NCBI RefSeq assembly: GCF_029531655.1
Contig: NZ_JANRMI010000002.1
Span: 620,001-684,000 of the forward strand
Direction: 5' to 3'
DNA length: 64,000 bases
From: Bdellovibrio svalbardensis
Lineage (GTDB): Bacteria; Bdellovibrionota; Bdellovibrionia; Bdellovibrionales; Bdellovibrionaceae
The notes beneath the pieces are model-generated. The model did not search any database, was not told where the DNA came from, and was given only the letters and a program-made list of their open reading frames with translations. The position numbers were made by a program, and so were the translations under genes. Position 1 is the stretch's first letter. The number at the start of each line of letters is the position of its first letter. Positions 24,301 to 27,893 of this stretch are shown here, piece by piece.

Positions 24301-25893
24301 TTACTCTTTTTCCTTTTGTTTAATGAAGGCTTCTCGCAGCCAGAGTCGGATGTGTTTGAGGTAGTGGTCTTTCATGCCAAAGAAGATGAAGTGGTTGTAG
24401 AAGAATTCTTGGCCGCCTGTATCTTCTTCGTGGAAATTAACTGTGCCGATGATTTCCGGGATTTCATTTTCCTCGGGGCGCCACAAGATGAATTCGCGGA
24501 AGGCCCCTGTGCTGATGGCGCGATAGTATTTCATAACCAAGCCGGCTTCAGAAATCTGGGTGATTTCGACAGGATTGGCAACTTTAAGGATTGCATTTTC
24601 CTTGAGGGACGCGATCGTAACTGGGGCTTTGTTTGCCAAGCCACTATGTTCGTTGACGAGTTTCTTTGTGATATAACCCTTATCCAAAGGCGTGAAAAAG
24701 ATGTCTTTGGTCCAAGTCGAAAGTTCGCGAACTTCCTCAAGAGGAACTTTCTTTTTAGAAATTAAAAACAGCGGTGGCAGCTTGAAAGTTTGATTTGCCC
24801 GTTTTGTGCGATCTTCCAAGCCTTTGCAAATTTGTTCCCAGCGCTTTTGTTTCTCGATTTCAAAGATCTCGTAATTGGCGAAAACAAAGTCAAAGCTTGT
24901 CGGTAAGTGTTGGCGATGCTGGGTGTCTTTGTCGTCCAAATCGGAAGCTAACTGGGCAAAGCTATTATAGACGAACACTTCGCTGTTGGAAAATCGATCA
25001 CTCAAGTAAATCTTAAGGTCCAAGGCGATAGAGGTCTCTTCGTCTAGAATGAGGATACGTGCTGGGGCGCTGTGAGTATTTTGGAAGCCTTCGTTTTTGT
25101 GCTCCGTCGCCTGCAGGATATGTTTTCGCACTTGGCTGATTTGTTGGTTGTCGGCCGCAAAGAAATGGAAATCACAAAGATACTCTTTTTCAGAGAGTTG
25201 CTTGCAAGATTTACAAAAGGCATGAACTGATTTTTTGTTTTCAGTTTTAAATGCCTCGGCGTAATACTTGGTTAAAGCACCAATTTCGATTTCATGATTA
25301 TTGATTGTGGTGAAGCCAACTTCTGTCAGTGAGTTTGTGGAAACTTCTTTCAGCATTTCGATTGTCGAATTGATCTTGATCGAAGTTACAGTTGCTGAAC
25401 TGCCAATGGCCTGGTGTCCAAGCAACGCAAACTCGAGATCCTGTTTAAGAATCAATTTGTCAAAAGGCTTGAAGATAACATTGTTAATGATGCGGTCTTC
25501 GGCAAGCTTGATATCAAAATTAGGGCTGTCGAAGGCAGTTAAAATCAATGCGGTGGGCTCTTGCTCTGAGCACATTTTCTTCCGTAAGAAGAAGTCGCGG
25601 GCCCGACGAATAAGCCCCATATTTTGGGTGCCAAGAAACTCATTTTTAGCGATGACCAGCTTCAGTTCATGAGTATTCGTGGGTTCAATAGGATCTAAAT
25701 TGTCTAAGGAGTGTCTTTGTCCGCCATCGGCTAAAGACTTGGGGCCCTCATGGACCGCGATCTTTAGCCATTCGTGAAAATCAGAAAGGTTGGTGAAAAA
25801 GCGAATATGAAGCTTCGGATCTATCATTTTGAGGGTCTCAAAAAGATCCTTCTGGATACGCACGTCATCTTCGAGGACGTAAATGAACTTCAT
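24301..25893 (-). CDS. Protein with two degenerate receiver-like and two PilZ-like segments
   Basis: This 530-residue protein looks like an internally duplicated REC-PilZ unit. Residues 1-160 begin like a receiver (MKFIYVLEDDVRIQKDLFETLK) and end with a receiver-like ILTAFDSP...VIFKPFDK. A segment of about 100 residues follows (IEMLKEVSTNSLTEVGFTTIN...). The second half repeats the layout: RILILDEETSIALDLKIYLS, a phospho-site position occupied by Asn (FVFANYE), FTPLDK, then a C-terminal region with QISEAGLVMKYYR that resembles PilZ. The receivers look unable to be phosphorylated normally. The PilZ segments lack an obvious RxxxR motif, so c-di-GMP binding is uncertain. Confidence 0.6.
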   Translation of the reverse strand: MKFIYVLEDDVRIQKDLFETLKMIDPKLHIRFFTNLSDFHEWLKIAVHEGPKSLADGGQRHSLDNLDPIEPTNTHELKLVIAKNEFLGTQNMGLIRRARDFFLRKKMCSEQEPTALILTAFDSPNFDIKLAEDRIINNVIFKPFDKLILKQDLEFALLGHQAIGSSATVTSIKINSTIEMLKEVSTNSLTEVGFTTINNHEIEIGALTKYYAEAFKTENKKSVHAFCKSCKQLSEKEYLCDFHFFAADNQQISQVRKHILQATEHKNEGFQNTHSAPARILILDEETSIALDLKIYLSDRFSNSEVFVYNSFAQLASDLDDKDTQHRQHLPTSFDFVFANYEIFEIEKQKRWEQICKGLEDRTKRANQTFKLPPLFLISKKKVPLEEVRELSTWTKDIFFTPLDKGYITKKLVNEHSGLANKAPVTIASLKENAILKVANPVEITQISEAGLVMKYYRAISTGAFREFILWRPEENEIPEIIGTVNFHEEDTGGQEFFYNHFIFFGMKDHYLKHIRLWLREAFIKQKEKE

Positions 25894-25941: not shown

Positions 25942-26289
25942 TTAAGGTGTTCTAAAGATGAAATAAACCGCGCCGACCAGGCACAATCCTGCCCAAAGGA
26001 AATCTAGCTTCAAGGATTGTTTCATATAGAGAACCGAAAACCCCGCGAAGACCACCATCGTGATGACTTCTTGGATGATTTTAAGCTGAGGAAGGGTGTA
26101 TTGGCCGTAGCCGATGCGGTTTGCGGGAACCTGTAGAGCGTACTCAAAGAAAGCAATCCCCCAACTTATAAGGACAGCCACCCACAGCGCTGACTCGCGC
26201 AAGCTTTTAAGATGACCATACCATGCAAAGGTCATGAAGATATTAGAAAGAAAAAGCAAAGCAATGGGCGTCCAGGACGCGTTCATCAT
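25942..26289 (-). CDS. DMT-family small membrane protein (DUF486)
   Basis: This 115-residue inner-membrane protein has four hydrophobic segments and the DUF486 signatures NIFMTFAWYGHLK and WGIAFFEYALQVPANRIGYGQYTLPQLKIIQEV. The family belongs to the drug/metabolite transporter group, but no substrate is known. The ATG overlaps the stop of the Na/Pi cotransporter gene (ATGA), with AGGAG about 8 bases upstream inside that gene, so the two are coupled. The family call is strong, the function open. Confidence 0.88.
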   Translation of the reverse strand: MMNASWTPIALLFLSNIFMTFAWYGHLKSLRESALWVAVLISWGIAFFEYALQVPANRIGYGQYTLPQLKIIQEVITMVVFAGFSVLYMKQSLKLDFLWAGLCLVGAVYFIFRTP

Positions 26290-27893
26290 ACGGAGCTCCT
26301 TTGATTGTAAGCGTGATTCACCAGCAAGCTCGCGATACGGCGATATTCACTTAAAAGATCCAAGTGGATAGAGCTGGTGTTGATGGAGGTCGCTAGGCCG
26401 CGATTAAGACGACTGATGTGATTCTCACGCAAAGAGATTTCTAGTTTTGCCAGGTCGCGCTTCAATTGAATAGCAGCGTCGCACAGCTCACGATTCTGGT
26501 AAGAATTGACTGCCATGGCGGCCACTTTCACCACTTGTTCGTGCATAGAGCGGATCTCTGACCAGCCCTCATCAGAAAACTCCAGCTTCAGCGCATTCTT
26601 TTTGATCGCCAAAGCCAGGATGTTGATATCAATCGCGTCAGCAGCTCGCTCGAGATCGCTTAGAAACATAATCATATTCATCACATTTTGATGAACCACT
26701 GTGGTGGATTTGTTCGCATGATCCAGAAGGAACATTTTGGTTTCACGGTAAAGGAAGTCGACTTTGTTATCGCGGTCTTTGATGGAATCAAAATCTTTAG
26801 GGTCGTTGGTTTCAAATAAACGGATGGAGTCTTTGATCATGCCAATAACGATGTCGGCAGTGCGCATGATTTCACGATTGGCATACGATACTGCCAATGC
26901 GGAGCTTTGATAGTTATCCATATTCACAAATTCAGTGCCAAACTCTTCAGAGGCGGCTTTCGGGAACATCTTCTCAATCAAGGCGGCGCCTTTGTTGATA
27001 AATGGATAGAATATGATCGCAGAGAGAATGTTGAAAATTAAATGCGCGTTCGCAATGGAACGGGCTGTTGTTGTATCAAAACTCATGAGGAAGTCGATAA
27101 ACAGCTGTGTGAACGGATAGAAGATCACGACACTGATGGTTTTATAGAAGAAATGGGCCCAGGCAACCTGACGGCCGATGTAGTTTCCGCCGGCGGCAGC
27201 AATGAGCGCCACCGAAGTTGTTCCAATGTTGGCGCCGTAAACCCAGATCATGGCATCATAGAATGAGATCGCTTTAACCGCAGCCAAGCTCATGGCAAGA
27301 CCAATCGTGATAGCGCTGCTTTGTACGATGGCGCAGAAGACGATGGAAATTAAGAGTGAATAGCCGGGATTGTCGCGGACGCTTTGGAAGAACTCCGTCA
27401 GCATCGGATTCTCTGCAAAGTGATTGGAGGCCACAGAGACAAACTTTAAGCCCAAGAAGAGCAAGGCAAAGCCCATGAAGGCGACAGAGATATTTTTGAA
27501 GATCGTTTTCTTTGCTTTAAAGTAGAAAGCGAAGGCAATGGCAAACACTGGCAGTGCATACTGCGCAAGATCGAAAGAAATCAATTGAACAGTGAGGGTT
27601 GTACCGATCGCTGTACCGATGATAACGCCCATTACTTGGCGGAGATTGACAACGCGGGCTGATCCAAGACCTACAAGCATCGACGTCACCGCGCCAGAGC
27701 TTTGCATTAAGGTCGTCAAAACCACACCCGTAAGGATGGCTAGAAATTTACTTTGGGAAAGGCGATTTAAAAGATTCGTGATCTTTCCGGCCATGATTTT
27801 TTCTAATGATGAGCTGGCAAGTCCCATACCATAGAGGAAAAGTGCAACCCCACTGATGAGGATTATGAAAAACGAATTCTGTGTATCTATCAT
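26286..27893 (-). CDS. Na/Pi cotransporter family protein with PhoU-like tail
   Basis: This 535-residue inner-membrane protein begins with the membrane domain of the Na/Pi cotransporter family (residues 1-310). It contains the duplicated QSS motifs characteristic of the family (TLMQSSGAVTSMLVGLG and AIVQSSAITIGLAMS). The last 200 residues are helical and PhoU-like (NVMNMIMFLSDLERAADAIDINILALA). Such proteins move phosphate with sodium, usually inward or for homeostasis. It is followed by the overlapping DUF486 gene. Upstream is a 175-bp spacer shared with a divergent NUDIX gene. Confidence 0.93.
   Translation of the reverse strand: MIDTQNSFFIILISGVALFLYGMGLASSSLEKIMAGKITNLLNRLSQSKFLAILTGVVLTTLMQSSGAVTSMLVGLGSARVVNLRQVMGVIIGTAIGTTLTVQLISFDLAQYALPVFAIAFAFYFKAKKTIFKNISVAFMGFALLFLGLKFVSVASNHFAENPMLTEFFQSVRDNPGYSLLISIVFCAIVQSSAITIGLAMSLAAVKAISFYDAMIWVYGANIGTTSVALIAAAGGNYIGRQVAWAHFFYKTISVVIFYPFTQLFIDFLMSFDTTTARSIANAHLIFNILSAIIFYPFINKGAALIEKMFPKAASEEFGTEFVNMDNYQSSALAVSYANREIMRTADIVIGMIKDSIRLFETNDPKDFDSIKDRDNKVDFLYRETKMFLLDHANKSTTVVHQNVMNMIMFLSDLERAADAIDINILALAIKKNALKLEFSDEGWSEIRSMHEQVVKVAAMAVNSYQNRELCDAAIQLKRDLAKLEISLRENHISRLNRGLATSINTSSIHLDLLSEYRRIASLLVNHAYNQRSSV

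Follow-up and report, generated by a model that had tools for sequence, protein, structure and literature searches.

Does a protein built of two receiver-like (REC) and two PilZ-like domains still act as a phosphorylated response regulator or a c-di-GMP sensor, or has it taken another role? We examined this question for a gene of Bdellovibrio svalbardensis in a 64,000-nucleotide stretch of contig NZ_JANRMI010000002.1 (positions 620,001 to 684,000; the window). The open reading frame (25893..24301, minus strand, ATG start) codes for a 530-amino-acid (aa) REC-PilZ-REC-PilZ protein and is single-copy in its own genome. The reading we favor, and regard as fairly probable, is a tandem pseudo-response-regulator, i.e., a phosphorylation-independent and probably c-di-GMP-independent protein-binding hub. 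The gene and its parts are as follows (evidence in brackets):

24301..25893, minus strand, whole gene REC1-PilZ1-REC2-PilZ2 (open reading frame, AlphaFold2 model, dN/dS)
25414..25893, minus strand, REC1 pseudo-receiver, aa 1-160 (hhalign to own-genome REC profile; residue counts)
25669..25725, minus strand, long REC1 loop between alpha2 and beta3, aa 57-75 (secondary structure of the model)
25108..25398, minus strand, PilZ1, about aa 166-262 (homology to PilZ2, motif scan, model)
24640..25068, minus strand, REC2 pseudo-receiver, aa 276-418 (VIA fold match; hhalign to REC)
24889..24939, minus strand, REC2 loop between alpha2 and beta3, aa 319-335 (where relatives carry the PAS-like insert)
24304..24627, minus strand, PilZ2, aa 423-530 (separate model; VIA matches)

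The two halves were compared profile to profile and matched at E 1.5e-27 over 243 columns, with like domains matching in turn (REC1-REC2, E 4.3e-14; PilZ1-PilZ2, E 3.3e-19); cross-domain pairs gave E of at least 0.2 and ten column shuffles E of at least 0.04. The halves are homologous, and the internal duplication, which a preliminary description had read from the sequence at 24301-25893, is real and far above chance. The comparison shows that a presumed ancestral receiver plus PilZ-like unit was doubled.

Family scans of the 530-aa protein returned 0 Pfam families, even at E 10, and no match in NCBIfam; it did not reach the Pfam gathering score for Response_reg (PF00072) or PilZ (PF07238), and Response_reg matches in relatives were weak (12/68, E up to 1). 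The AlphaFold2 model (input alignment of 68 members) had a mean pLDDT of 92.9 and a pTM of 0.85, and its secondary structure places receivers at aa 1-160 and 276-418 and PilZ domains at aa ~166-262 and 423-530. Both receivers matched a profile of own-genome receivers in hhalign (REC1, E 1.9e-11; REC2, E 4.6e-11), and neither matched the PilZ profile. The whole-model VIA search, which probed REC2 only, aligned REC2 with 3lua (Z 13.2, rmsd 2.5 over 122 residues) and with many other receivers. The best chain for the whole model in Foldseek was multi-domain PleD, at an overall TM of 0.19, which denotes single-domain matches only. Because the whole-model VIA search covered REC2 only, PilZ2 was folded by itself (pLDDT 88.5); its best 30 VIA rows were all PilZ or PilZ-containing (Z up to 9.7), PilZ chains filled the first 19 Foldseek rows, and PilZ2 matched the own-genome PilZ profile at E 1.7e-4 (REC control, 0.048). 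PilZ1 had no direct match to that profile (E 0.074) and was assigned as PilZ because it is homologous to PilZ2 and PilZ-like in the model. PilZ alignments searched as profiles against PDB sequences returned nothing useful; the PilZ fold was seen by fold search only. The models thus predict a CheY-like alpha/beta fold in both receivers and a PilZ beta-barrel fold in PilZ2. The receiver-then-PilZ order proposed earlier for each half is borne out by model, profiles, and fold search, and the structure prediction suggested as a check gave REC followed by PilZ, rather than some other fold, in both halves. As a side observation, the genome that carries the window (G000) had 19 PF07238 matches (L073-L091), the tandem gene not being among them; for strain HD100, 15 PilZ proteins have been published, among which the tandem protein would not be expected.

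A pseudo-receiver is a receiver fold lacking key phosphotransfer residues (PMC12632262), and both receivers here fall under that definition. REC1 keeps the acidic pocket (E8/D9/D10), T119, K142, and P143 (invariant), with Lys83, within IAKNEF, at the phospho-Asp site. REC2 has D284/E285/E286, with Asn340 at the Asp site, Ser379 at the Thr site, and Thr401 at the Lys site. The preliminary description had correctly noted the Asp-to-Asn change in FVFANYE (aa 336-342), without mentioning that REC1 has also lost its Asp; of the two motifs that it listed as remaining, FKPFDK (aa 141-146) is intact, whereas FTPLDK (aa 400-405) keeps the Pro but has Thr in place of the receiver Lys. Across 88 family members, the REC1 acceptor site is Lys in 41, Asp in 14, and Arg in 8, and the REC2 acceptor Asp is kept in 27. 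The acidic pair, Thr, and Lys are retained in 36 of the 49 members with Lys or Arg at the REC1 acceptor site. An aromatic residue at K-3 supports Y-T coupling (PMC12632262); REC1 lacks it in 82/88 members. All 22 Bdellovibrio-clade members lack the acceptor Asp in both receivers, which gives good sequence support to the earlier suggestion that the Bdellovibrio protein may be a phosphorylation-independent regulator. Some distant members keep Asp in one or both receivers, and phosphorylation could therefore persist in those.

Outside the order, the family profile finds half-size proteins of 224 to 261 aa. The receivers of the 10 scanned were intact (Response_reg, E 1e-17 to 1e-28), and the C-terminal region of 12 matched PilZ2 (E 1.4e-15) and PilZ (E 5e-6) and neither REC nor PAS. 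HisKA/HATPase_c kinases and Hpt proteins adjoin the half-size genes in L217 and L218, and Hpt proteins adjoin those in L215 and L216. Since such relatives have intact receivers, some of them encoded beside kinase or Hpt genes, a phosphorelay response regulator is the most likely ancestor of the tandem protein, which would have left its kinase. In L217 (6495-9380) and L218 (4051-6903), which represent a sister family of the class, the half-size REC-PilZ-like regulator forms an operon with a CheY-like receiver, a HAMP histidine kinase, and an Hpt protein. Two adjacent same-strand REC-PilZ-like genes lie right after an Hpt gene in L215 (6747-8470) and L216 (6500-8168); fusion of such a pair could have yielded the tandem protein.

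How might such a protein work? The receivers would each be held in one conformation, Lys83 of REC1 probably pairing with E8/D9/D10; the PilZ domains would serve as protein-binding surfaces in place of c-di-GMP sensors. The four domains may form a rigid cytoplasmic hub for a partner, which would be contacted most likely through the face of PilZ2 bearing FFGxxDxxLKxIRxW, conserved at its C-terminal end. Its activity could be set by how much of it is expressed or by the binding of a partner, as with FrzS and SgmX (PMC11580455, PMC12632262), and in relatives a nested PAS-like domain, described below, may be the switch.

Other readings of the same domains were weighed against this hub. The protein might be a receptor for c-di-GMP or cGAMP, bound at a non-canonical site at a PilZ-REC or PilZ1-PilZ2 interface, with the pseudo-receivers transmitting the change. 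Bdellovibrio depends heavily on both nucleotides (PMC3271064, PMC9140294), the fold of PilZ2 is that of PilZ, Ser/Thr and Gly of the [D/N]xSxxG turn are kept, and some PilZ domains might bind ligand via non-standard residues. The canonical signature, however, is largely gone: in motif scans, RxxxR was found in PilZ1 of 0/68 members and in PilZ2 of 1/68 (not the 530-aa protein), and [D/N]xSxxG is replaced by SLTEVG in PilZ1 and QISEAG in PilZ2, both without the Asp/Asn. Nor was RxxxR present ahead of the turn in the half-size sequences inspected, whose receivers are intact. The PilZ domains are therefore probably c-di-GMP-independent, a positive c-di-GMP binding test is less likely than the preliminary description implied, and we consider the receptor reading unlikely. 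We hold it quite unlikely that the protein is regulated by phosphorylation indirectly, through dimerization with, or competition for, an HPt protein or a partner receiver that is phosphorylated. This class of mechanism has been described and is proposed for pseudo-receivers such as CmrT (PMC12632262); the HK/HPt/CheY operons of the half-size relatives and the acidic pair, Thr, and Lys kept in REC1 would suit it. Against it stand the loss of the Y-T coupling aromatic from nearly all REC1 sequences and the synteny comparison (neighbors clustered, partly annotated), in which the tandem genes had no shared kinase, HPt, or CheY neighbor.

A further reading arises from the genes upstream:

25942..26289, minus strand, small membrane protein of the DUF486/DMT_6 family, encoded 48 bp upstream of the tandem gene (Pfam, E 9.1e-47)
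26286..27893, minus strand, PhoU-domain Na/Pi-cotransporter orthologous to HD100 Bd2221, whose gene overlaps that for DUF486 (Pfam, synteny)

The tandem protein could work with this cotransporter, e.g., in phosphate or starvation control. The DUF486 gene adjoins the tandem gene throughout the genus, and the same-strand order cotransporter, DUF486, tandem gene recurs in all genus members with the flank read. Bd2221 is expressed in growth phase and altered in 4/6 evolved populations (PMC9888234), as well as in host-independent isolates (PMC11323537, PMC3013116). Outside the genus the linkage is absent and the neighbors differ, although the family is order-wide. We regard this reading as very improbable, and the gene neighborhood was rejected as a source of a functional partner: a context conserved only within the genus names none. 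The hub reading is the one retained. Promoter and terminator scans around the tandem gene gave signals near chance level.

The same flank locates the gene in strain HD100. HD100 position 2117292 (Bd2221, PMC3013116) falls in the cotransporter open reading frame (2116850-2118454) of genome G004, which is therefore HD100 or a near-identical genome; the tandem ortholog lies there at 2118845-2120431, two genes downstream of Bd2221. Bd2196, obtained by linear extrapolation as the HD100 tag of the ortholog, was rejected because it is tatE, and tags Bd2222-Bd2224 had no mention in the texts of the Bdellovibrio papers searched.

Pseudo-receivers and degenerate PilZ domains are already known kinds, and several systems share parts of this design. 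FrzS of Myxococcus xanthus also has a receiver without phosphorylation residues, which binds SgmX in polarity and pili control (PMC11580455, PMC12632262), but it has one pseudo-receiver, a coiled-coil output, and no PilZ. PleD of Caulobacter crescentus likewise carries two receiver folds per chain, one a pseudo-receiver (PMC12632262), whereas its output is GGDEF, its receivers are adjacent, and one is phosphorylatable. XC1028 (3dsg) and the type IV pili PilZ proteins (3cnr, 7lkm) have a PilZ fold with, from their structure titles, little c-di-GMP binding or a protein-partner complex; they differ in being stand-alone and without a receiver, and they matched at Z 6.0-6.5, below c-di-GMP-binding PilZ domains. 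Closest in domain order are half-size REC-PilZ-like regulators of the same phylum (L203-L212), in which a divergent PilZ lacking RxxxR follows the REC, but as a single unit with an intact receiver site, some beside HK/HPt genes. Neither the tandem layout nor a receiver-nested PAS-like domain was found in the literature searched, coverage of which was incomplete.

The tandem family is conserved in this predator order and under strong purifying selection. An order-wide search (E 1e-3) found relatives in 111/141 genomes and in 84/103 of good quality, and the close ortholog pairs with measurable dS (n = 3) gave dN 0.019-0.039, dS 0.77-1.9, and dN/dS of about 0.01-0.05. Counts of receivers and PilZ proteins that rely on Pfam miss this conserved regulator of predatory bacteria. 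G026, of the same genus, carries a second, diverged tandem copy (L202, G026:C3; L016, G026:C14).

Many relatives carry a further domain within REC2, where 50/88 members have an extra segment of ~100-170 residues in the alpha2-beta3 loop. This insert matched an own-genome PAS profile at E 1.2e-4 (REC control, 0.57; PilZ control, 0.25); a third receiver as the identity of the extra ~125-aa segment was rejected on the same comparison of REC with PAS. The equivalent loop of REC1 has an insert in 6/88 members, which matched PAS (E 2.6e-4) and also the insert of REC2 (E 1.3e-7); REC and PilZ controls for both inserts gave E of at least 0.24. Pfam matches of the insert to PAS_3 and PAS_9 were weak and below cut-off, for which reason it is named PAS-like, an assignment of both inserts by profile similarity. 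On a tree from a quick IQ-TREE run, rooted at the midpoint just for drawing, at least 4 changes are needed to explain the REC2 insert, which was present in every member of a 24-row clade opposite Bdellovibrio, a distribution that fits ancestral presence and repeated loss. Bdellovibrio proteins lack the insert, and their long REC1 loop remains.

How pseudo-receivers are switched has no explanation yet according to PMC12632262. The family forms a natural series, from half-size proteins with intact receivers beside HK/HPt genes, through tandems with nested PAS-like domains, to tandems with neither Asp nor PAS, and such a series would allow testing what replaces phosphorylation. We put forward tentatively, and as a rather doubtful reading, a new signaling class in which a PAS-like sensor sits in the alpha2-beta3 loop of the pseudo-receiver in both repeats and ligand sensing would replace phosphorylation, Bdellovibrio having dropped the sensor and kept a constitutive core that would matter for the predatory cycle. 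An extra REC1 segment in another relative (L047, 5540-7843) was rejected as PAS; it is an Ala/Pro/Thr-rich low-complexity linker in that loop.
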